Virus record (IMG/VR): IMGVR_UViG_3300048061_000822
Span: 1 to 63,824 of that record
Direction: 5' to 3' (one strand)
DNA: 63,824 nt
From: a virus
Shown: piece after piece, positions 6,106 to 61,602 of the stretch
How the letters are laid out: each line of letters starts with the position of its first letter
Position numbering within the stretch: the first letter of the stretch is position 1
The notes under the pieces: model-generated
Told to the model about the DNA's origin: nothing
Database searches by the model: none
Seen by the model: only the letters and a program-made list of their open reading frames with translations
Translations under genes and position numbers: made by a program

Positions 6106-6107
6106 AC

Positions 6108-9023: not shown

Positions 9024-9038
9024 TACATTATGCCCTTT

Positions 9039-9393: not shown

Positions 9394-9426
9394 TTGCTCT
9401 ATCGCATATGCGATACATAATCGCAT
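9394..9426 (+). promoter_or_regulatory. Early promoter with 16-bp palindromic operator
   Basis: TTGCTC (9394-9399) and CATAAT (9416-9421) are 16 bp apart; the spacer is exactly the perfect palindrome TATCGCATATGCGATA (9400-9415). A further half-site TCGCAT follows at 9421-9426, and a related TATCATATCGTG lies about 50 bp upstream. A protein bound here would block this promoter. The -35 match is weak; the palindrome itself is certain. Confidence 0.6.
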
Positions 9427-9429
9427 CAA

Positions 9430-17934: not shown

Positions 17935-18102
17935 CTACTTCTTCTTCGACTTATTCCCCCAGTTCTTGGCACCCACCTTTCGACATTTAACTAATGCACC
18001 ACTTCCATATGCGCTTGGCCATGTACCCCCACCTTTTGTGTACCTTCTTTTAACCTTACTATAGCAGGCATCCTTCTTAGCCTTTGCTTTTTTCTTAGCC
18101 AT
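17935..18102 (-). CDS. Lys/Cys-rich mini-protein 1 (55 residues)
   Basis: [20 protein letters not shown], then WPSAYGSGALVKCRKVGAKN and WGN. The CYxKVKxRY...WPSAYxSGALVKCRKxGAxNWGN pattern is a recurrent small family in marine phages. It starts with TAATG overlap at the end of the fibre gene and lies 1 nt from the next gene. Role unknown. Confidence 0.7.
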   Translation of the reverse strand: MAKKKAKAKKDACYSKVKRRYTKGGGTWPSAYGSGALVKCRKVGAKNWGNKSKKK

Positions 18103-41275: not shown

Positions 41276-41508
41276 CGTTTCCTTTTAGGCTGAATACTTC
41301 TATTCTTCTTTTTGCTTACGCAACGAACGGGTCCAGTTAGCTTACCCTTCCTCTTGCCTTTGACATGATGTGCTTCTTGTCCTTTAGGGCATTTAGCTTT
41401 CTTAGCATCTTTGTTTCGCTTTGCTCGCCTAGCCTTTTGCTCTTTCGTTCCGTGATACTTATACTCTGAGTTTGGTGCTCCCTTTTTATATATTCTTTTC
41501 TTTCTCAT
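41272..41508 (-). CDS. Small basic HNH-like phage protein
   Basis: A 78-residue protein, about one third Lys/Arg. EYKYHGTKEQKARRAKRNKD, then CPKGQEAHHVKGKRKGKL and VRCVSKKKNRSIQPKRKR. The H(H)V..G...L...R.VSxKxNRSIxxKRR pattern is a small phage family with an HNH-like histidine pair, lacking the full zinc site here. Last gene of the leftward internal-virion operon; overlaps the metallophosphoesterase by 4 nt. Confidence 0.6.
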   Translation of the reverse strand: MRKKRIYKKGAPNSEYKYHGTKEQKARRAKRNKDAKKAKCPKGQEAHHVKGKRKGKLTGPVRCVSKKKNRSIQPKRKR

Positions 41509-42413
41509 TTTGCTCGTAATGCTTCTAGTATTGGTTTGCAGATTGTATCTCCATTTTTAGTTGTTTTATCTGCACTAAATCTTAACCACATTGCACCTGT
41601 TGGTTTTGGTGGGCCTCCCCTTTCAATGTGCCATCCACCATATCCATCTACATACTCTTCTTTGTAGGATGGAACCTTTAAGTGAAGTTGTTCATCATGG
41701 TGAATAGTGCCATGTGGAGTGAGCCGTATTCTAGGTATTGGAAATTGCCATTCATTGTGCGTATGTCCAGTAGCTACGATATGAGCATCGGGTAAATAAA
41801 CAGCCTGTCGGTTTGTTTGAATAACCCCTTTGGTTACAGGAGCATCTCCACCATATCCATGATGATACCATAAGTTCTTTGTTAGGCACTGACTGAATAC
41901 CACCAATTGAAACTTTATCCATCCACTATAACCGCCGACTTTTATATTTGATCCGTGCCTATCGTTAAGCATGGTAACTAATCTTTCTGTCAGGTTAGTC
42001 TCATGTCTTTTAGATATTGCAGTTTCATGATTACCAGGTGCCATGATTGCAAACAGATCCGCATAAGGACCGTAAAAATCTGCCGCAGTTGATACAAGTT
42101 TATCTAGGTAATCCCCTGTTTGATGCTCAGGTTTTAAATCTCTTTTATCTGACCTTGGGTCATACTTACCTTGCATCGCACAAAATAAGTCACCACCATC
42201 TATAATAATTGCTTTTCTTTTTCTGGCTAACTCCAGATGTCTCTTCTCCATCAGATTATCAGATTTTGGATTATCATGATGTCGGTCAAATGAAAGTAGC
42301 ACCCAGAAGGAATCTTTCTCTTGTGTGCTTTTTAATTGATGTTTTATAAAATGTACATTTCTACTCTTCTCTGTGACTTGAGTAGCTCCGGGGGGTAGTT
42401 TTTTTACGGGCAT
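41505..42413 (-). CDS. Calcineurin-like metallophosphoesterase
   Basis: A 302-residue protein with the metallophosphoesterase motifs in order: LLSFDRHHDNP (about 38-48; D-x-H), IIDGGDLFC (GD), IMAPGNHETA (about 125-134; GNHE), WYHHGYGG (about 181-188) and VATGHTHNEW (about 212-221; GHxH). It would hydrolyse phosphoesters, perhaps nucleotides or nucleic acid ends. It lies between the megaprotein (3 nt away) and the small basic gene, so it is expressed late and could be a virion or ejected protein. Confidence 0.8.
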   Translation of the reverse strand: MPVKKLPPGATQVTEKSRNVHFIKHQLKSTQEKDSFWVLLSFDRHHDNPKSDNLMEKRHLELARKRKAIIIDGGDLFCAMQGKYDPRSDKRDLKPEHQTGDYLDKLVSTAADFYGPYADLFAIMAPGNHETAISKRHETNLTERLVTMLNDRHGSNIKVGGYSGWIKFQLVVFSQCLTKNLWYHHGYGGDAPVTKGVIQTNRQAVYLPDAHIVATGHTHNEWQFPIPRIRLTPHGTIHHDEQLHLKVPSYKEEYVDGYGGWHIERGGPPKPTGAMWLRFSADKTTKNGDTICKPILEALRAK

Positions 42414-42416: not shown

Positions 42417-45400
42417 TTAAAATGCTAGGGATTGTTTTACTATATCATCGTATGACATCGGTTTTGTTGATGCACTATCCGTGACTATCATTGGTAAAGG
42501 ATTTGCTTTTAATTCAATTGAATCTAATAAAATGTGTTCAAATTTTTTGTGCATTGATTCTGCACGTCTTAAAGAATTAGCTTGTTCTGCAGTAAAGACA
42601 TTTAGAACTTTACTCCACTCATCATCTGATAACGTATATCTAGATAATCCACTTTTAAGAGTTCTCCTCTTGTATGATTGTAGTACTGATTTCTCAGGGT
42701 CTGCGTCACCTCGTTCGATTGCGGCTAAGACTGCCTGACTGTATGCTTCCTGAAATAATTTTTCATCATTTGCATATGCAGCTTGTTCCATTTTTCTAAT
42801 ATGGACTGAAAATGGAGTCGCCCTAAATCCTCCTGATACTGCTGGTCTTCTCTCAATCTCAAGTGTTGACAATGCGGCACGGACTTTATTTCGATTTCCA
42901 ATCATGTCGGACACTCTTCTTTCAATGGTATCAATACCCATCAAATTCGTAATCGCCTGCTGGGTTTGAAGAAATCCATTACCGCCCATGGAGTAAAGAA
43001 GTGGTCTGATAACCAAGTTATAATCCAATGACCTACTATGGTATGCGTTTTTAAACGCATCCATCGTATTAATGATTGTAGCCATGCCCAGTATTCTAGT
43101 ATCTAAAGAGAATCCTCGCTGAGATGCATATGGGTCTACTTGGGATACCATACTAGCAACAAAGTCTCCTGCGATACCTCCAATATTTCCTGCACGAGAA
43201 AGTCTCTCAATCATTGCAAGAGCATTTCCTTTTGCATCACCTTCAATAAAAGGTCCAAAGATTGGAATCATGGTTGACAGAGGAGCAGGACGAAGAGAAG
43301 AAGTTTTTCCTAATATCTCCTCATCATATTCATCCATTCCAAAAGTAAATGCCATACCAACAGGGGTGAGCCATAATCCCATTACGCTTAATGCTCTTAA
43401 TGATGCCTTGAGTGTAATCTCACTTGTCTGCTCATCCCTGAATGCCTCATTTACTTGATTAACCTTAGAGAATGACCAAGAAAGTAGAGGTGCAATATAC
43501 TTACCCCATTCATTTGTATACCAAAATGCTGACCTTGATGTAAAGCCACCCTCCATTGCAACATTATGTAATCCAATTGAACTAACTGCGAGTGCTTGGT
43601 CTTGGGTGAGTGCCAAAGTTTCACCTTTTGACTTTCTTTCAATATATTGATGAGCAAGGTCGCTAATTGTGCCTAACCCTCTTAATTCAATTTGATTATT
43701 AATGTAATTCCACATCGACTCACTTCCAAGAATCACTTCTCCTGTTGCAGATTTTGTCTCAAGTCCAAGATTCTCCGCAGTGACTTGATAAGTCGCAGGG
43801 ATTGGTTGACCCGTTCTCTTTGCAGATTGCTCAATGAAATCCGCAGCTTGCTTCACAAGCATATCGACTGCCTGTACGGTGCCTACACCAATCGAGTGAT
43901 TAGCTAAGTTACCTAAGTAGGTAAAAATATTAAGGAACATCGTACGCAATGAAAAAGGTGCGTAGGTCTGCCCCTCTTTTACGGGCGTATATTGTAAAGT
44001 ATTTTTTAATTGCCTTAATCCATCCATCTTAAATATTTCAAGTAAGCTCGCTTGCTTGGATGCATTAGCACCTAAATTTAATCTGTAATTATTATAACCC
44101 ACTTCATGCTCAGATGTATGAAAGTAAAAATCATTTAATTGTTTTGCATATTCACTGGTCAATCTGAGTTGTGAACCCATTCTTTCAAGCAGGGGACCAA
44201 ATACATTTCCAAATACATTTTTTAATGCAGTGGAAAATGCTTTTCTTGAAAATTTATTACCCCCTTTGTAAACCAAAGGTATATCAAAAAGAGATAGTAA
44301 ATTAGTCAGTCCACTTTTTGTTTGATTAAGTATAAGAAATGCATTCGTGCCAAGAAGTTCAAGAGCAACCTTATGGTCTTTGTATGGTCCAATATCTCCT
44401 TCTAGATGAGCTTTTAAGCTTTTTTCTGCAGTGTGGAAATTCTTTAACTGCCTAGCTGCAGCTTCAAGATTCTTTAATTTTTCCATACCTGTCTCACCAG
44501 GAATGTCTTCCATTCCCGCAGCTAGGTCTGCCGCTCTTTTTCTAAAACTACGCTTAAAAGTAAGTGGTACAGAGCTTGATGTCTTAACACCAAGTGCATC
44601 TGCAATATCGGTCAATTTCTCCCTCTTTTCATTAAGTTCTGCCTTTAGTTTGTCCTTTAATGCTGTGAGTTTTTCTGCATTTTTACCATAAATTCCATTG
44701 CCCAATATTTGAGCCAATTGAATGGGCATATCAATCTCAGTGTATGATTCATACTGAAGGAATTCCACGGGCATAATTGTCTGAGTAGATCGACTATCCA
44801 TCAATCTATGTGCCAATGCGTATGCCTTATTATCCATATTGCTTCCTGAATCACTTACTGCCTCCTCAAGATTTCTAAATCTTTTGTAAAATGCATTGGC
44901 TACATTATACTTGAACTTTAAATAATCAGTTCGTTTTTTATTATGAGGTACACTTTCATATAAAATATCAATAAATGATTTAAACTTTTGATGACCTTGT
45001 CCGGTGGATTGTGCCCATGCTTTTCTTAAATATGATTTAGGAATCTTTCCATCTTTTGAAAGTGGTGCAGGAATAAAATTAATTATTGATGTATCAAAAA
45101 TGTATGGGCGAATAAATCTGTCCAGGGTGGAATCAGTAATACCATCTTCAAAGTATGCATCTATAGCTTCCTCTTTTCTTTTTTCAGTTAGTGAATCATT
45201 TTGGTATGCTTTTTTAACATCTTCCCATCCCTCGAGATTGCCCAAACCCGAACTTAATTCATTAACAATACCTAGTACATAATTGGATCTAATTTTTCTG
45301 CCTGATGTTTGGTATCCTCTTTTTATTGCGTCTCGGGAAAGACCTTCAAATTCACCTTCAACAATTCTACTTTCCACTAATACTCTATTGGCACCTTTGT

Positions 45401-48400
45401 CCTGACTTACCTTAACATTATATTCCTGTGCTAAATCCAAGAAGAAACCTGATATAATCTTAGACTGTTCTAGTAGTTTTTGAAGAGTATCTCTAGCTTC
45501 ACTTTCACTAGTAATTGCATCTTTGTTTTTAACCAAGGACATTGCTTTATTAAATGTACCCTCGTCAAATTTTACTTTTTCATTTATTTGGGGTTGGTCT
45601 TCATTCCACTTTAATACCTTGTCATAAAAATCCAAAAACATCCGGTAATCAGTGTATCCCCATGCTTTAGTGGCATTGATTAACCTTCTATTCCATAGCT
45701 TACCAAACCTTCTTGCTCTGGATACATGCTTTCTATATGCGATATCAAATCGGAGTTCCAATTGTGCTATTTCCTTACCTAATCTCCCCTGTTCAGCAAA
45801 CATTGCCTGAGCCGACTTCAACCACCACATATTTAATCTACCCTGTGCTTCTTTGTGCTGTGGTTGGAGGGTAGCTGCATCTGCAGCTAAGGTTGCCTGT
45901 CTTATATATTGAAACTCAGCAGTACCTTGAATCTTTTCATTATTCTTATCTGTTAAATACTCCCTGTTTTTCTGCCTTGATATTACAAATTCATTTAGGT
46001 TTTCAGGTATAAGTTTATTATTAAGTTTAATATCAATGTAATCGATTTCGTACTTATCTCCCACCTTGGACATTACAGGAAACTTTAATCCGTCTACAAT
46101 GTGAGTAATCGGACTATGGCCCAAGTAGGTCTGCATTCTGTTCGAGTTCATATCATAACTCTTAATCAGTGCTAAGTACACTTGGTTATCCCTAAGCAAA
46201 TCTTCTGACTCCTGTACTTTCTCCAGGTACTTAATTCGCTTATCTATAAATGCATTTAATATCCCCTTCTCTTCTTCCTTGCCTGACAATAAAGATTCAG
46301 ATGGATTCTTTCCTTTGATTACTTTTAACTGATCAATTGTTGACTTGCTCAGACTTTCTAGCTTTGCCAATGTAGACCTTTTCCCTTGGAAATCACTACT
46401 TGTGGATAGCTTTGCTTCATACACGCTTTTCTTATTATTATGTATGGCAGATGCTATTACTATGTATTCGTTTTTAGAAACTTTTTGTCCGACACTTATT
46501 ATATTATATATGTCATTATAGGATAATTCCTGTATGTCATCTTTTTTACTGACCTGTAATACTAGGTCAGATAAGAATGATGGACTGAGCTTTCTAATAT
46601 TTCCCATAAGCTCAGTAAACTCATTTGATACCCTGTCCTCTCCAGTGATTTCTTTATATGCCTGTAATGTAGCCGAACTACCTGTGTCAATCTCACCATT
46701 GTCCTCAAGTATTTCCTGTCTTGTTTCTTGAGCGTAGTATGCAACTTGATTACTTATCTTATCCCCTTGAGTTGCACGATTAAATATAATCGCAGGGTCA
46801 GGTTTAATTTCACTTTCAAGTGTAAGAATTTCTGAAGCTAAACTATTGGGCTGATTTTCATCCAACTGATCCATGTTATTGGAAAGTGCTTCTTTTGCTT
46901 GCTTCTTTCTTTTTTCAATCAATCCAAGTGCGAGCACTCTTGCTTCCTGAACCATACCCTCATTGTTTTTCAATGCTTCTAGGGTTATGCTTTCTATATT
47001 CTGATAAGACTTTGTCTTTTCTTTTATATATTGAATAGGTGTCTTGCCGGATGATAAATATATCCTGTACACATCTTCCACGCTTAAGTCTGGAGTTTTT
47101 AAAATTCTACGAATATCCTCCATCGCTTGTGATGTGGATGCTAACTCCTCACTCCTGGAGGCTACTTGCATCTTTGCAAGTGCTATTTCATTTGCTTCTC
47201 TATTTAAAGATTGAGTAGTATTTGGATTTTCCTCTTCCGCATATACATCCTCCATTAACTGACCCTTGCCAAAATATTTCTTTATCCCCTTATCCATGGC
47301 AAGGGTTTGAAATTCAATTCTCTTATCTAAAGGTGTAGCATTATGCAAAGCATGGATATTATCAATCTCTCTTAAAGCAGTCTGGAATGGTATATCTGTA
47401 TGCTCTGCTATGTTATTAGCCAACTGAACATCTAAAGACCTTTCAGTTCCTTCCCATGATATATCTCTAGCTATAAGCCTGACTAGATATTTATTGCTTA
47501 CATTTGTAACCCTGACAATCTCTGGTTTTTCTTCCTGTTCTTCAATTGTTTCTTCACTCTCTTTTAATTTACCAAAGTCAAAAGTTAATTGATCTGACAT
47601 ATTGGAGGGAAGTAGGTCTCCTTTTTCATATGCCTCAATGGTGTTTTCATTTACCCACTTTTCAGAGTCGCCCAAATTTATTAAGTTATATGTATTGTCA
47701 CCATCTACCTTAACAATCGGTTGACCATTATCACCTTTGACCAATATGCCTAATCTACTAGGTACATTTTTAAATCTGATAATATTTCTTAGGTCATCTT
47801 TATCAGTTGTTTGATATGGTTCGTTGAATAAATTCGTGATTGTATATTCGCCCCCCGATTTTGTTACCTTTAGATTTGTGCGAGTCTCTCTCCTTACTCC
47901 ATCTAGTTCATCCTGCATTAATAAACGCTCACCATTTTGTAGGTTTTGTGCGAGCCGTTCATCAGGGATGGTGATGGTCATGAATTGCTCATTACGCTTT
48001 TCTTCTCTACCTAAATCATAATGTCGACTTTCAGCACCCTCTTCTAATTGAGGTTTTATATTTAAATACTTACCAAGTATTGCAGGCATAGAGCCATATG
48101 CATTAATAATTCCTTGAGTTTTTACACCATCGCTACCTACATAAGCATCATAGACTGAGCTAGGAGAACTTGAGACTATTGGATAAATTACATCCCCTCT
48201 TGTAAATACAACCTTATTAATTCTGTTAAGTGCAAGATACCTAATCAATGCCTTCATGTTGGCTAACTGATATGCATCTAGTAAAATATCATCTTTTACC
48301 AAATGTGTATTTTGCGCATTAAAGTCTTCAATAATCTGCTCGATACTTTCACCATTAGGATTCTTAAAAACAGTTTCTCCTCCAACATCTTTAATCCAGT

Positions 48401-51400
48401 ATCCTGCATCTGTGCGACTTGTAGCTTTTGGATATTTATATTCTAGGAATTCTTCTTTAGCGGTATCTCCTTTTTCTTGATATATAATCTGTTGCCTTCT
48501 TAATTCACTTATAAGTTCATTAGGCATCATTGGGAAAGATGGATTGTCATCGACTGGACGCTGGCCTGCTCGACCATCCCCTGCAAGACCACTAGTATTA
48601 AAGTCTGCCTTGGCAATATCCAATGCGAGTGCAGCTTCTTCTTGACGTTTATTTCTTTGCTCAATTTTCGCAGCTTTCTTGTTTGGAAGACCACTTATAT
48701 CAATTATGTCTTGCAGTTCTTGAATTTCTGTTTCCTTGGCTTCAATTGCATTAAGTCTTGCGCTAAGTGTGTTAAAAACAACATTCGCTCTTTTTACAAG
48801 ATTAGCTACAGAGAGAACATCTATCGTGCGACCTTTGACTATATGCCCATCTTCTTTAATCTGCCTTATTTGTCCGGGATAAAAATGTGCTACTGATTCT
48901 TGTCCATTTATTCGTACAATATACAAATTTGTTCCAGCTAGAGTGGGGTCAATTTTACCTGGATTATCAAACGAACCTTTCTGAACACCTGTGGATCGGT
49001 ATGGAAGAAGTCTCCATGGTCCTTCATTTGGAGTAATCTTCCCCTCTTCAATGTATGAAAAAGGATTTTTGTATTCGGTAACTGGACTTATCCCATCCTT
49101 AATTGAACCTTCCGATGCAAGGGTTAGGTCTTTGTTTGTTAGTGGTCTTGTGAGTTCCCATGCAACATAGCCCATTTCATCAACAAATGCTATATCACCA
49201 ACTTTATACTCTTTAGAAGAGTCCCACTCGTTGGTCTTTTTGTACCCTTCAGTAAATCCGAAGTATCCGCCAAATCTTTCATAAATATCTTTCTGCATTC
49301 TCTGCTTGGCGTCAGACTGTAGCTCAGATAACACAAATGATTTTACGCCATTAAATGTCCTCTCGTATCCTCTTATCCATGAATTCACTTTATGCGCCAT
49401 TGGCTCAATTTCGTCACCTAACCAATCAGTCGTTCCGACCGTCATTACTTCATCATGGAAGTGAGTGGGGATACTTGCATTTTTTTCCACTGTGAAAACA
49501 TCCCTATCCCTCTGTAGCTGTTCAATTTCCTGATCAGTGGCGAATTGAATATCTCTTACTTCTGCTAAGTTAGGTTGGAATATTTTTATTAATCTCCCCT
49601 GCTCACGAAAACCGTACTCGGTAGCTGTACGAACCTCGGTTTTGAATTTAAATTTCTTAAGCAATGATTCATATCTGCTAAATTTATCTTCACTGTGTGT
49701 GCCTACATATAAATCCCCATACTTAGCTGAGAGAGACTTTACAATATTTGCCATCTCTACAGCCACACGCATACCCTCAAGCCCACTGAGTTGACTTTCA
49801 ACTTTTCGGGTTTGTGATGAAATATCCCCTGCAAATTCCCCAACCTGTTGAAGTCCGAGTTGATACTTTCCTTTTAATGGAGCACGCTGATTATTAATTG
49901 TATATGTACTTGGGTCAGTTGCTTGCACCATAAAGATATGGTATTTATCTCTAATGAGGTAAGATTTTATAAGTCTGTACCCTTGTTGCTCTAATGACTC
50001 CACTTGCTCTTCGGGCAGTCTGTCACCAAGTATTCTTCTTCCTTCACCAGGTATGGTACTCCCCTGCATGATTGGTAAAGAGTCAGCTTTTTGCGTAACA
50101 TCTGATAGTGAAATATCTTTTAATCCAGGGGCAAGCATGAGGATATTGACAGGGTCGCCATGCCTTTTATCAATGTGCTCTACTATTTCCTCCTTCATTT
50201 TAACCGGTAGGCTTCTTATGGTGTTTAATCCCTTCAAGCTTTCGAATCCGGTATTTAAATAACCGATGTGCGTATCACCCTTAAGTCTAAAAATTGGCTC
50301 TGAGATTGATGGGAGATTCCTAGTTGAACTTGAGTCAATAAAAATATCCCGCCATCGACTTCTACCCTGTTCTTCCATATCAACAAGGGTAGAGTCCAGG
50401 TAGCTGATTCTTCCAAGACCATCATATCCAAGATATAGACTAGTCAACCAATTAAACTCCACTCCACTTGGATTGTTAGGGTCTTTAACATCTAAGTCTA
50501 GCATAGAAAGTTTATTTGGAGCGGGTGTATTAGAGGCAGTCAGGGAAGTTCTAAAATTTACTAAAGCATTATCAAGAAGATTATCCCCAAAACTATCTAA
50601 TCTTGTAAGGATATGCCTTATTGACTTAGAAGGCAGAAAGTCTGGCTTTACCTCGAAGTATTCCTCTGAATTCTTTGCAATCTTATCAAGTTCTTGAAGT
50701 TCTTTTTCTATTTCTTCAGGCAACTGTAGTATTTTTTTCTGACCAGGTGTAAGACCAGCAGTTCCATTTGGGTTGGTCCTTTTTCCATTCACCACAAAAT
50801 TATCTACTGCTAATTCAACTAGTCTTGACGCAGGGACAGGGGTTACAAAATTAGGAAATCCATAACTGGAGCCAGCAAATTTCTTCTCATTTGTTTCTGT
50901 TACCGACCTTTCGGAGTTAAGGTATACAGATTGAATATCTTTAGGGTCTACTTTTTCCAATGACGCAATTATTCTTAACACTTTAATGACTTGATTGACA
51001 TCATCATCAGCTCCTTCTACTAGATCGACATCTCTTGGGTCTAGCGTGATTTGTTCTGTGGAATTGTATGTTCCTGTCTGTCGACTGGTGGGGCCATATA
51101 TCCTTTTTTTGGTGTAGCGAATAGTTACCGAAAAAACACTGCCATCGCCTTGCCTCTTGGTGCTAATGACTTTACCCTCTTTAAAATTGGTTGATTCTGG
51201 GTCCTTAAATGTAACTCTAGAACCAATGACATATGAAGCGCTAGACAAAGAAGAAAAGAAATCACTTGAAGCAGGAAGCGCTTGCTTTATAATTTCCTTC
51301 AATTCCTCGATGGAGTTGGCATAGTGACTTTCCGGTAGTAGCTCAACTTGCCAAAACTCAAGTTCTTTCCTAGCTTCATAGCTTTTGCCTTTATTAAAAA

Positions 51401-54400
51401 CAAGCGTGCCAGTTGCCTGCTGTCTATCAATAGATTCAATTTCTGCAACTGCACCAATGTAGCCTACAGCGGAATCTCCTTCGTCCAATACACGAACCTT
51501 TTGTCCGGGTAGAAATTGGGTCTTTTTCAAAGTGTCAGGCACTCCATCAGGGTACATCAATCTAGCAGCACTTAGAATCTCTTCATCAGTTACATTTTTT
51601 TCCTGTTCTTGAATTCTCTGTATCGCCCTAAATCTATCCTTGTAGAAGTCTTTAATTTTACTATTAGTGAATCTTACCGCATCCGATAGTTTATTCATAC
51701 TACCAACTGCTTGAACTGCCTTATTGAACTTCTCTCTAAATTTCTTTGTTTCCTCTGCGCTTGGTTCAATTATTTCATGGGTAAAATCCCCAACCTTTGT
51801 TTTGCCTAAGGTTTCCCCCATTTGTACAGCAGTGTAAAACCTTGCAAGTTTTCTTTTTTGTCCAGGGGTTGCAAGTTCATAGGGCATTATTGTACCCGCT
51901 ATAAATACAGTGGGGTCATCTGTTTTAAATCCATAATCTATCCCGAAGGGAACTGGTTTTGAAAATATATTATCTAACTTTGCCTTATTGTCATCGGATA
52001 ATCTTCTTACTATATCATCCCTACTCAAGGATGGGTCAAGAGACATTCCCTGCCCAGTAAATCTCGTTACCTTTTCTCTTGTATTAAATCTACTAAAGTC
52101 ATGAGACCCGACATACTCAGCAGTGCGCACGCCGTCATCTCCTTGGTATACTACATTATTCGAAACAATGGGCACTTGGTTAGCGGCATTAGCAATCTTC
52201 CTGAGCATGGGTAGGTTAATCTTTCTATCCCCAATCTCATCTAATAAACTACCAATGGTTACCTTTAACTCATTTGCGGATACTCCTTCATCAATTAATA
52301 TCTTCTTCCACCTCTTTCCGGTTGCCTCTTTGGGTAATGCTTTTGGTTTAGCGAATCCTTTTAATTGATTTTCAATTGCTCCTTTTTGTTTTAAAAGTGC
52401 AACCTTGCCCTCAGTGTCATTCTTCTTGTCTCCGTTAAAATACTCGGGAAGTTCTTTCTTTATTTGATTTAACTCCTGCCTTAGCTGAATTTCTTCCTGA
52501 CTCTGTGTTGTCTCCCCTTGTACCACATTTAATACCTTCTCCATTTGAGAATAGAATATAGGGGCAGGGTTATCTGCCATTGCAGCTAGTAGTTGATTTC
52601 TCTCTACTTCTTGTTGTGGAAGTAGTGACTGACTCTGCGCCTCTAATTGTTTAGACAATTCGAGAATAGATTCTAGAGCCGTGCCTTCAACATTAACTCC
52701 CATCAAACCGAGCAGTTTTGAATACGCAGAAATAAGTGCATCCATTAATGTGGAGATAAATCCCTTACCATTCTGATCTATTCTTTTCTTTAAACCGTCG
52801 TTTTCAAATTGTGTATTGGATAGAAATTTAGCGAAGTCTTTTCTTGTCCATGCATAATTTAATGTCTCACTTATTGCGCGACTGTCATTAGAGAAAAGAA
52901 AAGAGAACTCTCTTGCACCTGGTGCCTGCTTAATCTCACTTATGACATCTTTTATTAGGTCAATAGTTTTATTAATCTCAGGAGTTGCTTCACCATTCTC
53001 GTATGCTTTAAGTGGTGCCTCCATTGTACCATGCCATACCTCATGCAATACAACAGACATTAATACATTAGTTGTGGTGTCCTCCGTAAGGTCTAATGGT
53101 AACTCTTCGCCTTTTAAATCATACTTCCCTGCGTAGAATTGCCTGTTAATTATTACGAGGTTATTTAAATAACTACCTCTTACTATTTGACCGGGGGCAG
53201 ATGAGATTTCATCCACAACTTGTATGCTCAAGTTATCGCTATTATTAAGTGCGTTTTCTAGGACATCGATATAGCGAGAAATAAATTCTTTTGCCTCTGG
53301 GCTTTTACCAGTGTTCTCAATGTATCTTTTTATTTTTTCTAATACTACAGGGGCAAATATATTACCTCCTATTATCTCTTCAATTGCTCTATCGTTAAGT
53401 GCTTCCTGACCTTCGGGTAGTAAGATTTGTTGTTCATAATTAACCCCCCTCTTGAAAGACTGAGCAATATTGTATGCATCTGAATTTTCTGCATTTGAAT
53501 AATAAGGAGTGGATCCGATATAACGGTCTGCCATCTGCCTAACTTGTTCCTGTCCAGGAGCACTAACGCCTACACTATTATCTGCCTGTGCTTCAACTTC
53601 ATTTGCTTCAACATTAGAAATTGGAATTAAAAACTGTCTTCCATTTAATGCAGGGTATGCATTTTTTATTCTTGTTACACCAAGTTGCTTGAATGCATCT
53701 AGTAGTACTGCATCAAGAATTTTAATAAAGTCAGATGGGTTTTTTACATTATTTTCTATAAATACATCCTCAATTGCCCCTTCAATATTCTTTCTGTTTG
53801 ATGACTCAACATCAACACGCTCAATTGCATCTCCAATAAAACCACCAATTTCGTTTACATCAAGAATACGGGCAAGCGTCATCGCAATCTCCCCCCTTGT
53901 GTCAGCTATATCGTTTGGAGATGCAGCTAATTTAAACACCAATGTAGCAAGTTCTGTTGCGTCATCCTTTGAATACTCAGCATCAGAAAGCACACCTTTA
54001 ATTATAGATTCAGTATTATCCTTAATGGTAATTGATTTATCATTAAAGTGGGATGCTATAGCTTCCCATCCTGACTTACTCTTTTCAGAATTACCCGTGG
54101 CAGATAAGTTTGATTTTTCAAGTTCCGATAAAATAGTCTGACTGCCCGACCATTGCAACCAATCGAAAAATACACCTGTCGCCCCATCAACTCCTCCATC
54201 TATTTGAATGAATTGCTCATTTGTCCTGATTGCATTTACCACCTCGAATATAATTCGATTAGCATCAGTTGCTTTCTCGAGTTCAATTCCAAGTTTTTCA
54301 AAAGGTTGCATGGGCAATGTTGGCAAAGATTTATCCGCAACTTGCCTATCTGTTAAACCCTGTAAGTTTTTCTTAGAGAACTCATGTAATATTCTTATCT

Positions 54401-57400
54401 GTTCGCTTGTAGCCCACTCTGCGGTTGGAACACTACTTAAACTATATTGCTTATTCCTGCGTTCATCTCGCTCTAGTATTTCAGCAGGGGTCAATTCAGC
54501 ACTAGGCAAAGTTTCTGTAATCGGTACAGATTCTCCCTCTGGACTATTACTTGTTCTTACGAAGTTTTGCCTGTCGCTCTCAATCCCAAGTCCAAATTCT
54601 GTATTTAATATAACTTGGAAAGCATGTGCAAAGTCTGACGCATTCTTTGGCCCAACTCCTTTAATTGCTTTTTGGATTATATCGATATCTGATTTAGCGA
54701 TATCAAGATTTTCTTTTGGAAATTTTTCTTGAGTGGCGTTCGAAATAAATTTATCAGCAAGCTTTTTACCTTCATGGGTTTTTGATAAATCCTCGATAAC
54801 TGAGAAAGTATCTAAACTTGCCAACCCACCCTTAATTACAGAGAAGTGCTTATCAAATGCTTGAAGGGGAGATTCATGGTCACCAAAAACAATAGTTTCT
54901 CTACTCTCTAGTTTGCTCTTTAATTTCTTCTGCTCTCTAGTTTGAACTATGGATTCTTCTAGCTCTACCTTTTCAAAACTGTCCAACCATTTATTATACT
55001 CAGCTTCATTGTCGAAGTTTTGCCTAAATATACCAGGATGCCCTGAAAATGATATTGCTCCATAGTATTCAAATTCTGCGGGTAGTTTACCGAAAGGCAT
55101 TTTTTTTGCATCTTCTTCAAGGCTCACCTCTCCATCTCGCTTCTTAGAGAAAAATTCCGATACTTCAGAACCTTTAATTGTTCGAGCAAATAATCGACCG
55201 GACAATTTATGCCTTATTACAATTACATTATTTGATTGCCTTGCATTACCTTTCGCAATTTTAGGAAGTTCTCTTTTTGCCTCCTTCTTTTTTCCTAAAT
55301 CAGCGTCCCTTACTTTTGGCTTTCCCGAGAACACCCTAGAGTCACTTAACCTTATATGGTCCTGTTCAGTTGGTAATAGTAAGCTGGTGGGGGATGCACC
55401 TCCATAGTTATAATTCCCTTCAGATTTTACTAGTATTTCTATGTTCTGAAACTTAGTTTCCTTTAAGAAAAACCGTAAGACAACTCCATCAAACCTAACC
55501 TTTAGTTTTTGATTACTTGGGGTTATTATTTTGGTTATATTCTGTAAATTGTTTTGCGGTAAAACTTTACCTAATAAAAAGAAGTCAGATATTTCGTTAG
55601 GCTTTTTCCCATTTAATAAAGTTGAACCTCTTTTGTTTTTTCTGAAAACACCCTCATCACTTACAATATATGTTGTGTCATCAATAATGTATTCCCCATT
55701 CTCAATCGCAGGAATCTCTTCTAATGTAGAGCCGTCTATTTCTTCTACAACTTCTTCTACAACTTCTTCTACAACTTCTTCTACGACTTCCTTTTCGGGC
55801 TTTCTTAAAATACTATCAATCTTAGATTGGTCAGAAGTTGCTTCACTAACTACCCTATTAAGATTATCAATATCATCCACATAATCTTCATAGCTTTTAT
55901 AATTCCTTAGCCTCCCTGTGCCTCCACCTTGTTGGATGATAATATTTGCTTTTATTTTTTCATCATCATTAAAAGCATTAAACTGTTCTTCTGATACAGG
56001 ACTTATAGTAAGTTCTCGTCCTTCGTTTTTGGCATTAGCTACTGCATTAATAGCATTATCAACCCTAGTTATATCAGTCTCTTTTCCTGTGGATACTAGA
56101 AATTTATTAGATGGAGTCTTAGCAATACTGGCGATTCGATCGAGTTTCTTCTTTTCTGCGTCCTCCTTTTTGTTTTCTTCTGCCTGTACCTTAGCTTCCT
56201 CAGAAGCATTTTTTGTTTCTTCTACAGTTTGTTCATACTTAATATCCCCTCTGGACTTATAACTTTCTCCAAGCTTTTTCTTTATCCCTTCCTTGAATGC
56301 ATCAACAAGTACTTGATTGGATGGTTGGTCACCCGGTGCATAAAACTCCTGTTTCCAATTATCATATGCATTTTTAAATCCAACTGGATCTATTCTCTTT
56401 AATTTATTTGGGGTTATTTCAGAAATCCTAAGGTCTTCATTCTGTAAGTATTCGCCTAAATATTCTAATGCCCTAAGTTCAGGCAGTGGAATATCATTCT
56501 CTTTTTGATTTCTAAGGTCTTCCTTTTCTTTTAATTGTTCCTCCCGTGTCTGATTTTTACTTTCAGGGGAGGTTTGCTTCTCTTCTTCCTGTGCCTGTTT
56601 TTGCTCTTCCCTAAATGTATCAACAGGATTTTCTTCGGTGGATTGCTGAAACTCTTCCCTAGCCTGTTTTATTGCCTCAGTAGGATTTTCCCCCTCTGCT
56701 ATTAATTGTTTTGCCCGATCTGCTATATATAAGTCTTTTTTACCCCCGTCTGGCGTGCGAAAAAGCTCTCCTGAAAGTGCATTACCGAGAGCAAACTCAA
56801 GCCCTCCTTCAAAGTCTCCCGACTCAAAGATATCCTTGATTTTTGGACTTAAAAGATTACCACTTGATCCGGTTTTTTTACTTGGGTCTTTTTTATCAAA
56901 GAAAAATTCTCGGACGTACTCTTTTATTTTTCCGTCAACTAACTTTACAACTAAATCAACAGGAAGACCGTCTCTGTCATAGACTCTGAATCTAGACCGC
57001 TGAATATTTATTTTGGTTCCGTCTTTTTTGGTTAGTTCCCTTGTGGTGGTTTCCCACTCCGACCCTTGCGGTTGTGGCCCTTGTGGTTCTACTTTTGGGG
57101 TGGTGGTTTCTGTAGTTTCTTCTTCTACCACTGCACTTAATGCACGAGCAGGGCCAACATTAATAACCTCAAATCTTTCAAGTTCAGGATTACGCTGAAC
57201 TTTAATTAATGCATCATCTCCCCGTAGTCCTGCAAATTCACCAACCGTGTTATCTCCAGTTCTGACTTTTTGTCCGATATCAAATGTTTTTATAGGAGTT
57301 AATTCATCAACTGCATCTTGCTTGGCTTTAACTTTATCTGATTCTGCCTTAATTATATTCTTAAGTTCCTGATCAAATTTCTCTTCTTTTTCTATTTCTG

Positions 57401-58610
57401 CATTCCTTGCATCTATTTGTGCTTTCTTCCCTGCCCATAATTCTGTACCACCATTGAATACAGCACCTCCTATCATACCCAATATGCCACCATCGATTAG
57501 TGTGTACAATTCCTGTTCACTAAACTTACTTAGATCAAAAGGAGAGTCTTCATTGTGTGCAAATTTTTCAGCAACCACATTTAAATATTCCTGAGTTGCT
57601 TCAGTTGAGCCTTCAACTGCCACTCCCCTACCTACTGCACTAAGGAGATTTCTCTTAACAAATGCATCTGCCCGTGCAACATCCACAACACTAGGTGTTT
57701 TATTTGGGAAAAACTTCTTTAGTATTTTTGGTCCCACCATTGATGGAAGGATTGAATCCAAAGCACCAATTGCTATACCGAACTTCCAGGACAATGCCTC
57801 CGCATCTTCCGGTTTAACATAATCCTTATCCTGTGGATCAAGTTTTGTGTAAGGATATAAGCTACTATACACCTCACCAATTCCCATGGTGCCACTTCCT
57901 GCAGCTGTGCCACCTAATAAACTTACACCTTTTGCATAATTTTTAGCAACCTCCTGCATAATAGGTGGAAGGTCGGCATATCTTTTTGTGGATGACTTCA
58001 TTAGGTCATCAAAATCCAAACCTCGCTTAGCCACACGAGTTGCTTCTTTTCTAAGAGCCGGTCCAACTACTGCTTTTTTAAGAATTTCTTTTCCTGCAAG
58101 TCCAGCAACTCCACCTGTACCAATCATGGTTAATCCTGATGGTAGAACTCGACCAACTCCTCCTGCAAGAAATCTTAATCCTTCACTAACACTATTTACT
58201 TCTGAGAATGATTGAATGGTAGGCGCACCTTTTTGCGACTCCTTCATATTCTCCATGGACTTATCCATCATCCATTCGGACGCACTATCTAATCCTACCT
58301 TCTTAGCTAAGAATCCAGCACCACCATAAAGCATACCTTGGGTTTCATCTACACCTTGACCAAACCCCGCAAAGGGTTCTTTTAAAGAACCAAAAAATCC
58401 ATCACGACCTAGTCGTTTAGCCTCTCTTGCATTTACCGCAGAAGTGTATTGCTTGGAAAACTCAGGATATTCCTTAATCTTTTGGGGGCCATACTGACCC
58501 TCCATCTTTCTGCCTAAGCTTAAAGTTAGTTGTTCATCGGAATACTTTGATACATCAGTCCCATCACGGGTAAGTTTTTCCTTATACCAATTAAGTAAAC
58601 CATTTGCCAT
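42417..58610 (-). CDS. Giant internal virion / ejection megaprotein (5397 residues)
   Basis: One uninterrupted reading frame of 16,194 nt. N-terminal region (about 85-400) has Gly/Ala-rich hydrophobic helices and EGSTEATQEYL, typical of ejected phage proteins. About 590-960 is charged coiled coil with a VVEE repeat near 941-957. A zincin-like motif HEVWHG has H1856, E1857, H1860, followed about 40 residues later by an acidic helical stretch. Blocks such as FVLSELQSDAKQRMQKD (about 3100) and the MKALIRYLALNRI segment resemble large polyvalent-protein domains of phage and element megaproteins (DarB-like). The C-terminal ~800 residues are helical and partly hydrophobic. It lies with two other internal proteins, so it is probably packaged and delivered with DNA, perhaps acting in envelope penetration or against host defence. 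Confidence 0.8.
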   Translation of the reverse strand: MANGLLNWYKEKLTRDGTDVSKYSDEQLTLSLGRKMEGQYGPQKIKEYPEFSKQYTSAVNAREAKRLGRDGFFGSLKEPFAGFGQGVDETQGMLYGGAGFLAKKVGLDSASEWMMDKSMENMKESQKGAPTIQSFSEVNSVSEGLRFLAGGVGRVLPSGLTMIGTGGVAGLAGKEILKKAVVGPALRKEATRVAKRGLDFDDLMKSSTKRYADLPPIMQEVAKNYAKGVSLLGGTAAGSGTMGIGEVYSSLYPYTKLDPQDKDYVKPEDAEALSWKFGIAIGALDSILPSMVGPKILKKFFPNKTPSVVDVARADAFVKRNLLSAVGRGVAVEGSTEATQEYLNVVAEKFAHNEDSPFDLSKFSEQELYTLIDGGILGMIGGAVFNGGTELWAGKKAQIDARNAEIEKEEKFDQELKNIIKAESDKVKAKQDAVDELTPIKTFDIGQKVRTGDNTVGEFAGLRGDDALIKVQRNPELERFEVINVGPARALSAVVEEETTETTTPKVEPQGPQPQGSEWETTTRELTKKDGTKINIQRSRFRVYDRDGLPVDLVVKLVDGKIKEYVREFFFDKKDPSKKTGSSGNLLSPKIKDIFESGDFEGGLEFALGNALSGELFRTPDGGKKDLYIADRAKQLIAEGENPTEAIKQAREEFQQSTEENPVDTFREEQKQAQEEEKQTSPESKNQTREEQLKEKEDLRNQKENDIPLPELRALEYLGEYLQNEDLRISEITPNKLKRIDPVGFKNAYDNWKQEFYAPGDQPSNQVLVDAFKEGIKKKLGESYKSRGDIKYEQTVEETKNASEEAKVQAEENKKEDAEKKKLDRIASIAKTPSNKFLVSTGKETDITRVDNAINAVANAKNEGRELTISPVSEEQFNAFNDDEKIKANIIIQQGGGTGRLRNYKSYEDYVDDIDNLNRVVSEATSDQSKIDSILRKPEKEVVEEVVEEVVEEVVEEIDGSTLEEIPAIENGEYIIDDTTYIVSDEGVFRKNKRGSTLLNGKKPNEISDFFLLGKVLPQNNLQNITKIITPSNQKLKVRFDGVVLRFFLKETKFQNIEILVKSEGNYNYGGASPTSLLLPTEQDHIRLSDSRVFSGKPKVRDADLGKKKEAKRELPKIAKGNARQSNNVIVIRHKLSGRLFARTIKGSEVSEFFSKKRDGEVSLEEDAKKMPFGKLPAEFEYYGAISFSGHPGIFRQNFDNEAEYNKWLDSFEKVELEESIVQTREQKKLKSKLESRETIVFGDHESPLQAFDKHFSVIKGGLASLDTFSVIEDLSKTHEGKKLADKFISNATQEKFPKENLDIAKSDIDIIQKAIKGVGPKNASDFAHAFQVILNTEFGLGIESDRQNFVRTSNSPEGESVPITETLPSAELTPAEILERDERRNKQYSLSSVPTAEWATSEQIRILHEFSKKNLQGLTDRQVADKSLPTLPMQPFEKLGIELEKATDANRIIFEVVNAIRTNEQFIQIDGGVDGATGVFFDWLQWSGSQTILSELEKSNLSATGNSEKSKSGWEAIASHFNDKSITIKDNTESIIKGVLSDAEYSKDDATELATLVFKLAASPNDIADTRGEIAMTLARILDVNEIGGFIGDAIERVDVESSNRKNIEGAIEDVFIENNVKNPSDFIKILDAVLLDAFKQLGVTRIKNAYPALNGRQFLIPISNVEANEVEAQADNSVGVSAPGQEQVRQMADRYIGSTPYYSNAENSDAYNIAQSFKRGVNYEQQILLPEGQEALNDRAIEEIIGGNIFAPVVLEKIKRYIENTGKSPEAKEFISRYIDVLENALNNSDNLSIQVVDEISSAPGQIVRGSYLNNLVIINRQFYAGKYDLKGEELPLDLTEDTTTNVLMSVVLHEVWHGTMEAPLKAYENGEATPEINKTIDLIKDVISEIKQAPGAREFSFLFSNDSRAISETLNYAWTRKDFAKFLSNTQFENDGLKKRIDQNGKGFISTLMDALISAYSKLLGLMGVNVEGTALESILELSKQLEAQSQSLLPQQEVERNQLLAAMADNPAPIFYSQMEKVLNVVQGETTQSQEEIQLRQELNQIKKELPEYFNGDKKNDTEGKVALLKQKGAIENQLKGFAKPKALPKEATGKRWKKILIDEGVSANELKVTIGSLLDEIGDRKINLPMLRKIANAANQVPIVSNNVVYQGDDGVRTAEYVGSHDFSRFNTREKVTRFTGQGMSLDPSLSRDDIVRRLSDDNKAKLDNIFSKPVPFGIDYGFKTDDPTVFIAGTIMPYELATPGQKRKLARFYTAVQMGETLGKTKVGDFTHEIIEPSAEETKKFREKFNKAVQAVGSMNKLSDAVRFTNSKIKDFYKDRFRAIQRIQEQEKNVTDEEILSAARLMYPDGVPDTLKKTQFLPGQKVRVLDEGDSAVGYIGAVAEIESIDRQQATGTLVFNKGKSYEARKELEFWQVELLPESHYANSIEELKEIIKQALPASSDFFSSLSSASYVIGSRVTFKDPESTNFKEGKVISTKRQGDGSVFSVTIRYTKKRIYGPTSRQTGTYNSTEQITLDPRDVDLVEGADDDVNQVIKVLRIIASLEKVDPKDIQSVYLNSERSVTETNEKKFAGSSYGFPNFVTPVPASRLVELAVDNFVVNGKRTNPNGTAGLTPGQKKILQLPEEIEKELQELDKIAKNSEEYFEVKPDFLPSKSIRHILTRLDSFGDNLLDNALVNFRTSLTASNTPAPNKLSMLDLDVKDPNNPSGVEFNWLTSLYLGYDGLGRISYLDSTLVDMEEQGRSRWRDIFIDSSSTRNLPSISEPIFRLKGDTHIGYLNTGFESLKGLNTIRSLPVKMKEEIVEHIDKRHGDPVNILMLAPGLKDISLSDVTQKADSLPIMQGSTIPGEGRRILGDRLPEEQVESLEQQGYRLIKSYLIRDKYHIFMVQATDPSTYTINNQRAPLKGKYQLGLQQVGEFAGDISSQTRKVESQLSGLEGMRVAVEMANIVKSLSAKYGDLYVGTHSEDKFSRYESLLKKFKFKTEVRTATEYGFREQGRLIKIFQPNLAEVRDIQFATDQEIEQLQRDRDVFTVEKNASIPTHFHDEVMTVGTTDWLGDEIEPMAHKVNSWIRGYERTFNGVKSFVLSELQSDAKQRMQKDIYERFGGYFGFTEGYKKTNEWDSSKEYKVGDIAFVDEMGYVAWELTRPLTNKDLTLASEGSIKDGISPVTEYKNPFSYIEEGKITPNEGPWRLLPYRSTGVQKGSFDNPGKIDPTLAGTNLYIVRINGQESVAHFYPGQIRQIKEDGHIVKGRTIDVLSVANLVKRANVVFNTLSARLNAIEAKETEIQELQDIIDISGLPNKKAAKIEQRNKRQEEAALALDIAKADFNTSGLAGDGRAGQRPVDDNPSFPMMPNELISELRRQQIIYQEKGDTAKEEFLEYKYPKATSRTDAGYWIKDVGGETVFKNPNGESIEQIIEDFNAQNTHLVKDDILLDAYQLANMKALIRYLALNRINKVVFTRGDVIYPIVSSSPSSVYDAYVGSDGVKTQGIINAYGSMPAILGKYLNIKPQLEEGAESRHYDLGREEKRNEQFMTITIPDERLAQNLQNGERLLMQDELDGVRRETRTNLKVTKSGGEYTITNLFNEPYQTTDKDDLRNIIRFKNVPSRLGILVKGDNGQPIVKVDGDNTYNLINLGDSEKWVNENTIEAYEKGDLLPSNMSDQLTFDFGKLKESEETIEEQEEKPEIVRVTNVSNKYLVRLIARDISWEGTERSLDVQLANNIAEHTDIPFQTALREIDNIHALHNATPLDKRIEFQTLAMDKGIKKYFGKGQLMEDVYAEEENPNTTQSLNREANEIALAKMQVASRSEELASTSQAMEDIRRILKTPDLSVEDVYRIYLSSGKTPIQYIKEKTKSYQNIESITLEALKNNEGMVQEARVLALGLIEKRKKQAKEALSNNMDQLDENQPNSLASEILTLESEIKPDPAIIFNRATQGDKISNQVAYYAQETRQEILEDNGEIDTGSSATLQAYKEITGEDRVSNEFTELMGNIRKLSPSFLSDLVLQVSKKDDIQELSYNDIYNIISVGQKVSKNEYIVIASAIHNNKKSVYEAKLSTSSDFQGKRSTLAKLESLSKSTIDQLKVIKGKNPSESLLSGKEEEKGILNAFIDKRIKYLEKVQESEDLLRDNQVYLALIKSYDMNSNRMQTYLGHSPITHIVDGLKFPVMSKVGDKYEIDYIDIKLNNKLIPENLNEFVISRQKNREYLTDKNNEKIQGTAEFQYIRQATLAADAATLQPQHKEAQGRLNMWWLKSAQAMFAEQGRLGKEIAQLELRFDIAYRKHVSRARRFGKLWNRRLINATKAWGYTDYRMFLDFYDKVLKWNEDQPQINEKVKFDEGTFNKAMSLVKNKDAITSESEARDTLQKLLEQSKIISGFFLDLAQEYNVKVSQDKGANRVLVESRIVEGEFEGLSRDAIKRGYQTSGRKIRSNYVLGIVNELSSGLGNLEGWEDVKKAYQNDSLTEKRKEEAIDAYFEDGITDSTLDRFIRPYIFDTSIINFIPAPLSKDGKIPKSYLRKAWAQSTGQGHQKFKSFIDILYESVPHNKKRTDYLKFKYNVANAFYKRFRNLEEAVSDSGSNMDNKAYALAHRLMDSRSTQTIMPVEFLQYESYTEIDMPIQLAQILGNGIYGKNAEKLTALKDKLKAELNEKREKLTDIADALGVKTSSSVPLTFKRSFRKRAADLAAGMEDIPGETGMEKLKNLEAAARQLKNFHTAEKSLKAHLEGDIGPYKDHKVALELLGTNAFLILNQTKSGLTNLLSLFDIPLVYKGGNKFSRKAFSTALKNVFGNVFGPLLERMGSQLRLTSEYAKQLNDFYFHTSEHEVGYNNYRLNLGANASKQASLLEIFKMDGLRQLKNTLQYTPVKEGQTYAPFSLRTMFLNIFTYLGNLANHSIGVGTVQAVDMLVKQAADFIEQSAKRTGQPIPATYQVTAENLGLETKSATGEVILGSESMWNYINNQIELRGLGTISDLAHQYIERKSKGETLALTQDQALAVSSIGLHNVAMEGGFTSRSAFWYTNEWGKYIAPLLSWSFSKVNQVNEAFRDEQTSEITLKASLRALSVMGLWLTPVGMAFTFGMDEYDEEILGKTSSLRPAPLSTMIPIFGPFIEGDAKGNALAMIERLSRAGNIGGIAGDFVASMVSQVDPYASQRGFSLDTRILGMATIINTMDAFKNAYHSRSLDYNLVIRPLLYSMGGNGFLQTQQAITNLMGIDTIERRVSDMIGNRNKVRAALSTLEIERRPAVSGGFRATPFSVHIRKMEQAAYANDEKLFQEAYSQAVLAAIERGDADPEKSVLQSYKRRTLKSGLSRYTLSDDEWSKVLNVFTAEQANSLRRAESMHKKFEHILLDSIELKANPLPMIVTDSASTKPMSYDDIVKQSLAF
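46550..46569. repeat. 20-bp palindrome inside the megaprotein gene
   Basis: TGACCT-GTAATACT-AGGTCA: arms and spacing match the family, spacer does not. Deep in coding sequence, so possibly coincidental. Confidence 0.35.
55741..55788. repeat. 12-bp tandem repeat (4 copies) in megaprotein gene
   Basis: Four head-to-tail copies of TCTTCTACAACT (the last with G for A), encoding Val-Val-Glu-Glu units on the minus strand. The unit is a multiple of three, so copy-number change keeps the frame and only lengthens an acidic linker. Confidence 0.85.
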
Positions 58611-58611: not shown

Positions 58612-60369
58612 TCACTTAGGTTTTAAAGCTTCTTCTAATGCCTTAAGTTGTGCTTCTACTTTTATAAGTTCAGCTTTTCGGTCATTTTCGTATTTATCAA
58701 ATTTTTCGTTTTGCTTCAGTATGTAATCAACTGTTACTGGTCTATCGGTCTTCGTATCTCCAAAGACAAATCCACCATACCCCATAGGTACCATAGGTGA
58801 ACCTGGCATAGTTCCACTAATTGCCTCTTGACGCTTACTATTTATTTCTGGACCTTGCCTGCGAAGTTCTCCTATGCGGGCTTGTAAAGCTTTTACTGCT
58901 TCTCCTGGTGACTTATTGCCAATATCAATTACTTTAGGTGCATCATCCACTTCATCATTATCAGGGAGGGCAAACGGTGCAGGCACATTAGCCTCAAGTG
59001 CTTCTGCACCAGTACCGCCATTTAATAATTCATACAAGTCATCATTAAATCGGTCATCTGTTTCATCTACGAAAGATTTTCCATTTTGGGTATCTATGAC
59101 CATTGCACGTGTACCACCAAAATTAAAGAAAGTGCCTTCTGGTAATTTCTGAATTGCTTCGTCTCGATATCCTGCATCACTATATGTTAATGGTTTTAAC
59201 AAAGTTGGATGCTGTGCTGTTAAAGAACCCATAGCTTGTGTATGCTGAAGAAGTTCATTTGTATATGGCGATAGGTACGAGTTTACCCTGCTTTGAAAAT
59301 CCTGATAAAACTTGGAATCTTTATTAGCAATCTGATTATTATACATTGTAAGTCTATGCGCAGACAATTCATCAGGGAGTGGTGGATTCTCGTAAGGTTC
59401 ATCAGTTTCCGGATCAATTTGTTTTAAATAATCTGCTTCTACCATTGAATCAGGAAGTAAATCCTCTAATGCTAATTGTTGCGCTACTGGTGTGCTTGCT
59501 GCTATGACTGACCGTGCGTCCCCTGCTTTTCTTCTTAGTTCATTTAGGGGTGCTCTGTATTTTTCAGCATATCCATTATTAAATATTTTTTGAGCTAATG
59601 CAGGAGGTAGTTTTTCTATAAGTTGTAATTGTCGAAAACTATTAATATTAAACTCTGCAAATGTTGCTTTGTTTTGTTTATATATCATTCGCTTTTGATT
59701 TACATCCATCCCTCTTTTGTAGACATCCTGTAGGTAATTATTCCAATTAGCTTGATTCATTGTCGCAAATTCTGCGGTTCCTTCATCTAGCCCAAGGTCT
59801 AGTAATTGTTGCCTGTAACCTTCTTTATTGTCTTCAAAATATTCTTTTTCTACTTGTTGGTCAAAATACTCATCGTCTGCCCGAGTATTTAAAATTCCTT
59901 GACGCTCTCTTTGTGCCTTTAGATATGCTCTGTCTTCTTTTAAATATTTCTGTTTTTGCGAGTAATCCTTTAGCCCCATCATCTGCTTCATCTTATCTGG
60001 GTCACGAGCATACATCAGGGCATCTGCATCTGACATTTCTTCAAAGTTAGACTTTATCATATCTGCCATCTGTTGCGTACGCCCTTCGTTGGCTTCCGCT
60101 TTAAGCTTCATGGCATCCATCTGTTTAACTTTGCCTACTGCTCCTGCAATGGTTCCTATGATTCCACCTGGATCCGCAGATGCAGCCATACCAATTTGAC
60201 CAAGACTTGGGTCATTAATATCAGGGTCTAAACTAAGTGCAGTAAGTTGATTACCCAATCTATTTGCCTCTGACTTTTGAGTTAGTTCATCCCTACTTCT
60301 CTCCCTATTATAGTTTGATAAGTTCTGTTGGAATAACTGACTCCCTGCTGTATTTATTGTCTTAGCCAT
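58612..60369 (-). CDS. Internal virion protein (helical, 585 residues)
   Basis: Long, mostly helical protein rich in Gln, Met, Asp and Lys. Residues about 55-90 contain a Gly/Ala segment (GMAASADPGGIIGTIAGAVG); a charged helical body with YFDQQVEKEYFEDNKEGYRQ follows, and the C-terminal half has NFGGTRAMVIDT and a final coiled coil. Position between the megaprotein (1 nt away) and another core-like protein, and composition, match ejection/core proteins of podoviruses (P22 gp20/gp16, T7 gp15). Specific family not identified. Confidence 0.65.
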   Translation of the reverse strand: MAKTINTAGSQLFQQNLSNYNRERSRDELTQKSEANRLGNQLTALSLDPDINDPSLGQIGMAASADPGGIIGTIAGAVGKVKQMDAMKLKAEANEGRTQQMADMIKSNFEEMSDADALMYARDPDKMKQMMGLKDYSQKQKYLKEDRAYLKAQRERQGILNTRADDEYFDQQVEKEYFEDNKEGYRQQLLDLGLDEGTAEFATMNQANWNNYLQDVYKRGMDVNQKRMIYKQNKATFAEFNINSFRQLQLIEKLPPALAQKIFNNGYAEKYRAPLNELRRKAGDARSVIAASTPVAQQLALEDLLPDSMVEADYLKQIDPETDEPYENPPLPDELSAHRLTMYNNQIANKDSKFYQDFQSRVNSYLSPYTNELLQHTQAMGSLTAQHPTLLKPLTYSDAGYRDEAIQKLPEGTFFNFGGTRAMVIDTQNGKSFVDETDDRFNDDLYELLNGGTGAEALEANVPAPFALPDNDEVDDAPKVIDIGNKSPGEAVKALQARIGELRRQGPEINSKRQEAISGTMPGSPMVPMGYGGFVFGDTKTDRPVTVDYILKQNEKFDKYENDRKAELIKVEAQLKALEEALKPK

Positions 60370-61601: not shown

Positions 61602-61602
61602 A

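Follow-up and report, generated by a model that had tools for sequence, protein, structure and literature searches.

A single 16.2-kb open frame in a marine phage contig raises the question of whether it is truly one gene and, if so, what a phage would do with a product of more than 600 kDa. The original prediction was that of a virion megaprotein, possibly ejected with the DNA and carrying several enzymatic domains to pass the envelope and counter host defences, by analogy with DarB-like and other phage megaproteins. We consider that the protein belongs, with a probability of about four in five, to the ejectosome of a short-tailed phage, as its third component and the largest one, standing in the position of gp16 or the N4 virion RNA polymerase (vRNAP) and built as a polyvalent protein. 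The readings of the locus as an assembly fusion, as an N4-type polymerase or as a DarB-like protein rank below ejection.

The giant frame and its relatives

The window, by which we mean the whole stretch of 63,824 nt that was analysed (IMG/VR record IMGVR_UViG_3300048061_000822), carries an intact frame with an ATG start and 5,397 codons; according to the ORF list and its translation, the only stop is the terminal one, just as had been predicted. The gene and its neighbours are as follows.

42417 to 58610, minus strand: megaprotein gene (5,397 aa, 605 kDa, pI 5.5, Cys-free); in third place in a putative ejection operon, of which it is the largest gene
58612 to 60369, minus strand: 585-aa Cys-free protein in the position of gp15 (periplasmic tunnel), a role suggested by operon position
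60372 to 61631, minus strand: Cys-free protein of 419 aa in the position of gp14 (outer-membrane channel), a role suggested by operon position; one hydrophobic helix at its N terminus
61603 to 62046, minus strand: 147-aa acetyltransferase-like Cys-free protein, first gene of the block (phrog_1249, E 5.6e-13)
41505 to 42413, minus strand: 302-aa nuclease-like gene, directly downstream of the megaprotein gene (phrog_7339, E 7.7e-11); synteny kept in the relatives G006 and L052

At 16,194 nt the gene occupies 25.4% of the contig, so the predicted quarter of the genome is correct for these 63.8 kb; for the phage, the share is estimated at nearer 20% of an ~81-kb genome, since the contig, judged from the ~17 kb lying between the points that match its two ends in the relative G019, lacks about that length. 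The left end lies within a probable major capsid gene, and the right end within the last ~250 residues of a tail-module gene whose version in close relatives has 904-1,073 aa. Window positions 1-11228 (L002:1-11228) recur with 99.6% identity in a 14.5-kb contig of a different metagenome, which reaches ~3.2 kb past the window start. Elsewhere the window carries two separate tyrosine-recombinase (integrase) genes (7401-8396 and 40220-41275), which hint at a temperate lifestyle or a remnant, a gene for a tail fibre of 941 aa that combines collagen-like repeats with a laminin-G/lectin-type domain (18102-20927) and, on the other (early) strand, genes for a C5-cytosine DNA methylase and an SNF2-type helicase (29049-30449 and 35954-38449).

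A terminase search returned 20 related contigs, and megaprotein slices together with a C-terminal alignment gathered a family made up of the window and 12 relatives, most of the latter being incomplete phage contigs from metagenomes. Complete single frames are present in G025/L047 (5,658 aa), L052 (4,398), G013 (3,682), L046 (3,668), L045 (3,632) and L043 (3,103), and the window protein is therefore not the largest of its family. These relatives bear directly on the possibility that assembly joined several genes into the 5,397-aa frame. Two observations could be taken in that sense, namely that residues 2001-3588 have no counterpart in the relatives and that the megaprotein is spread over two or three frames in each of G006, G016 and G022. 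Against this, one-frame relatives of 3.1-5.7 kaa come from other samples, and the complete 4,398-aa orthologue of L052, in which N-terminal identity is 57% and that of the final 1,800 residues ~40%, aligns with the window protein on either side of aa 2001-3588 and is followed by the 302-aa gene, as in the window. Moreover, the frame has no TGT or TGC codon, aa 2001-3588 included, against 72 and 295 in the two remaining sense frames, and codon usage is even. The break in G006 falls inside an ART-PolyVal-like domain, leaving its halves in separate frames; from this, and from the few cysteines in the frame-break tails, we infer that the breaks in the three relatives are sequencing or assembly errors. 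With several relatives also holding single giant frames (3,103 to 5,658 aa), an assembly fusion is very unlikely, in our view close to negligible.

N-terminal, middle and C-terminal slices of the megaprotein had no tblastn match among 50,697 phage records, nor did the terminase of this phage group in the reference phage collection, and a limited literature search, which is weak evidence, found no earlier description of the family. L052 (CALIKS010000036.1), of 15 kb, was binned with the MAG of an 'uncultured archaeon'; it is probably mis-binned phage DNA and hence gives no reliable host information.

Cysteine exclusion and operon order

Not one of the 5,397 residues of the megaprotein is a cysteine. 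At the 1.84% rate of the phage's own non-virion genes ~99 would be expected (Poisson P 8e-44), and at the 0.56% rate of the portal, terminase and tail-fibre group ~30 (Poisson P 7e-14). TGY codons are missing here but common when the sense strand is read in either of its other frames, so the bias is one of the protein and not of base composition. It extends to the family set, where 6 cysteines occur in 46,961 residues, five of the six in out-of-frame tails; a 5' extension of L047 contributes a further 1,145 Cys-free residues, and the 13 family sequences (~48,100 residues) hold one credible cysteine. Within the window, the 585-, 419- and 147-aa proteins, the 342- and 176-aa frames and the scaffold-position protein are likewise Cys-free.

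Control proteins from other phages behave in a similar manner: N4 vRNAP (3,500 aa), gp51 and gp52, T7 gp15 and gp16, and PhiM1 EP3, OEP and TEP have no cysteine and T7 gp14 has one, while in these phages the polymerases, the portals and the majority of tail proteins do contain it. It should be noted that a lack of cysteine is not exclusive to ejected proteins, as T7 gp9 and the N4 coat protein, both of them short, have none either, and that the cargo proteins of crAss001 are Cys-poor (0-3 each), not Cys-free. vRNAPs have already been noted as Cys-free, with passage through the tail and periplasm proposed as the cause (PMC3715699, PMC3915230).

The transcribed order is a tail-module gene followed by genes for 342, 147, 419, 585, 5,397 and 302 aa. 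The 419-, 585- and 5,397-aa genes lie on one strand with gaps of 1-2 nt, making the megaprotein the last and largest product of what we take to be a three-gene ejection operon, and its gene closes the Cys-free operon of 147, 419, 585 and 5,397 aa. The neighbouring pair of ejection-type proteins that had been predicted is present, in the form of the 585- and 419-aa genes in the same orientation. The order is repeated in G025, G019 and G006, and in G025 genes for 924 and 506 aa precede the 5,658-aa frame, all of them Cys-free. Like operons are T7 gp14-gp15-gp16 and DEV gp73-gp72-gp71, in which gp71 is a giant N4-like vRNAP (PMC10925440). The 302-aa nuclease-like protein contains cysteine, and we would not assign its gene to the virion module.

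Conserved ends, a variable middle and a zincin-like domain

Comparison across the family divides the protein into the following regions, all on the minus strand.

57141 to 58610: conserved N-terminal region, aa 1-490, with Gly/Ala-rich segments (65% identity to G019, 57% to L052)
52611 to 53633: zincin-like metallopeptidase region, aa 1660-2000, from the family profile against PhiM1 gp48
53031 to 53045: HEVWH active-site motif, aa 1856-1860, aligned across the family
52866 to 52868: E1915, probable third zinc ligand, aligned across the family
47847 to 52610: variable block, aa 2001-3588, Cys-free and without relatives in any search made
42420 to 46079: conserved C-terminal core, aa 4178-5397, all-helical, in all members reaching this end

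The N-terminal region is kept in most members that hold this end. Inspection of the sequence confirms the Gly/Ala segments foreseen there; the sole strong hydrophobic peak of a 19-residue scan lies near the C terminus (aa 5074-5092). The N-terminal region matches PHROG 6958 'virion structural protein' weakly and has, in profile comparison, no homology to PhiM1 TEP or N4. The C-terminal core has ~1,200 aa, and an AlphaFold model covering the last 1,198 aa, of moderate confidence (pLDDT 64), is nearly all helix. In a BFVD search with this model the best match was a close relative; below it, with E values between 2e-3 and 4e-2, came large-polyvalent-protein-associated proteins, an LPD38 podovirus protein and an internal protein of a Bordetella podophage. 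Foldseek against the PDB gave nothing significant (VIA Z below 8), with 8vb2 absent among the matches listed, and we therefore claim no solved fold for the core. Its alignment with the C terminus of PhiM1 TEP is weak but collinear (8.6%), and hhalign found no homology to the C termini of N4 vRNAP.

Between these ends the protein varies. Residues 2001-3588 are replaced by ~190 aa in G019 and ~250 aa in L052, and L047 has both ends, but not the middle, in common with the window protein. Scans of all megaprotein slices against Pfam, PHROG and NCBIfam gave no confident domain. By eye, possible enzyme-like motifs can be picked out at aa ~2900-3560 of the unique block (ELQSD at 3095-3099 and a GNAT-like stretch near 2950), for which no search gave support.

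The zincin-like region has the HEXXH motif and a glutamate on the following helix by which Iyer et al. define zincin-like MPTases, and with H1856, E1857, H1860 and E1915 the full set of catalytic residues is present. A nine-sequence family profile matched a single PDB chain significantly, that of PhiM1 gp48 (8vb2, E 2.5e-6), over its HEAAH helix and downstream glutamate, and profile-profile comparison with hhalign gave 96.7% (E 3.3e-10); the match needs the family profile, as the window sequence alone did not find gp48. With the AlphaFold model, likewise of moderate confidence (pLDDT 66), Foldseek returned nothing from the PDB at E <= 0.001, and a second look with VIA placed the zincin-like metalloprotease 3e11 first (Z 5.1, rmsd 4.0, 95 residues), a match that is weak alone, with further zincins ranking below it. 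In five relatives (G013, L044-L046 and G016, also given as L033, L044, L045, L046 and L035) the first histidine is changed to glutamate (EEVAH/EEIAH/EELQH) and, with the first zinc ligand replaced, the site is probably inactive there. In PhiM1 gp48 itself (L063:32197-35985), the published 'endolysin/exotransglycosidase-like' region Asp268-Asp528 holds the HEAAH and downstream glutamate that align with the zincin profile, and may have a metallopeptidase fold rather than that of a peptidoglycan enzyme.

On sequence grounds, the zincin is the sole assignable enzyme domain of the window megaprotein. Several had been predicted. The polyvalent character proposed is supported at the level of the family, in which G006 has, after the zincin, an ART-PolyVal-like domain that is below the Pfam cut-off and spread over two frames. 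The DarB analogy is not supported: when every slice was searched with Pfam, PHROGs and NCBIfam, neither a methylase-helicase dyad (DarB) nor a ParB-like nuclease (DdrB) came up. For such zincins Iyer et al. considered chain processing in the head or after entry, or host protein targets (PMC5512222). In our judgement, processing of its own chain is the leading option, though still a tentative one, action on a host target is possible but unlikely, and a non-catalytic role is somewhat more doubtful still.

That the protein is a giant N4-type vRNAP, its polymerase domain having diverged past recognition, e.g. within aa 2001-3588, is suggested by the same operon position, the absence of cysteine and a zincin that N4 vRNAP also has (HELVH at 2228), and no phage RNA polymerase was recognised among the scanned window genes. 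However, the window protein has no TxxGR motif and just one motif-B-like site, a chance match; the N4 polymerase domain gave no phmmer match to it, and the C-terminal core is unrelated to N4 C termini. A Pfam RNA_pol search did not recover its own controls and carries no weight here. We regard this alternative as highly improbable and, as far as sequence can tell, the megaprotein is not an N4-type RNA polymerase.

It might instead be a structural protein, resembling a tail or head scaffold, and remain in the virion after DNA release; the gene lies within the virion module, some structural proteins are likewise Cys-free, and PHROG 6958 is weakly matched. This is at odds with a gene that comes after gp14- and gp15-like genes, with an intact zincin active site, with the homology of the zincin to an ejectosome protein, and with the variable middle and effector-like domains of relatives, and we find it decidedly improbable. 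Operon order, the family-wide absence of cysteine and a zincin homologous to an ejectosome protein seen by cryo-EM support the predicted virion or ejection role, in which packaging and ejection are probable steps.

Comparators and a proposed route of delivery

By architecture and evidence, the nearest comparators are T7 gp16, PhiM1 gp48 and N4 vRNAP rather than P1 DarB, and homology to a proven gp16-class ejection protein is established for the zincin only. PhiM1 gp48 (tetrameric ejection protein, PDB 8vb2, PMC11440229) is similarly the last of three Cys-free ejection genes, has the homologous zincin-like domain and is weakly and collinearly similar in its C-terminal helical part, but it has 1,263 aa compared with 5,397, an unrelated N-terminal region and no large variable middle. 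The vRNAPs N4 gp50 (3,500 aa) and DEV gp71 (3,398 aa) are giant, Cys-free products of the third ejection gene with a zincin motif, and beads-on-a-string passage has been proposed for them, for N4 via a ~35 A channel in a 2025 preprint (PMC12633501); unlike them, the window protein has no polymerase motif or sequence match, and the C termini are not detectably homologous. T7 gp16 shares the operon place after gp14 and gp15 and the lack of cysteine, yet it has 1,318 aa and no convincing sequence homology. No peptidoglycan-cleaving domain, such as a transglycosylase, was found in the megaprotein by Pfam, PHROGs or NCBIfam, which remote ones may escape, and such a domain is not universal in the gp16/TEP class. 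With the polyvalent proteins (Iyer et al., 2017, PMC5512222) the family shares the zincin peptidase, an ART in a relative, a place in the phage late module and the LPD-type structural matches of the C-terminal core, although the window protein has one assignable enzymatic domain and no Pfam LPD profile match. The PhicrAss001 cargo proteins gp45-gp50 (PMC10172136) are also large, Cys-poor virion cargo extruded partly unfolded, but as separate polypeptides of up to 2,412 aa, mostly RNA-polymerase associated and not fully Cys-free.

We propose that copies of the megaprotein would be packed in the capsid near the portal and that, upon infection, the 419- and 585-aa partners would form an envelope channel, while the 605-kDa chain would pass the tail with its domains unfolded or joined by loose links. 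Lacking cysteine, it could form no disulfides on its way across the oxidising periplasm. The conserved N-terminal region and the helical C-terminal core may act as a docking and translocation chassis with the variable middle as cargo, so that domains differing from phage to phage would reach the envelope or cytoplasm, and the zincin would most likely cleave its own chain, or else a host protein, before or after delivery. We tentatively extend this to the family as a general protein-delivery chassis, with conserved end modules flanking cargo blocks, up to thousands of residues long, that phages exchange; the odds are somewhat against so broad a view. If it is true, the ~1,590-residue block would be an undescribed injected enzyme set, carried in a >600-kDa Cys-free chain through a short-tail channel.

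New here are the size of the protein in combination with the lack of a recognisable polymerase, the chassis-and-cargo pattern and the strictness of the cysteine exclusion. Injected podophage proteins of ~3.5 kaa have so far mostly been N4-like RNA polymerases, and a family of 5.4-5.7 kaa in which no polymerase is recognisable would raise the limit of the protein threaded by a short-tailed phage. That cysteine is almost entirely excluded from ~48,000 residues offers a simple and testable sequence signature for ejected phage proteins, which, if used at scale, could flag such proteins among the unknowns of metagenomes, and the combination of conserved ends and a variable middle provides a clean system for finding new early effectors.
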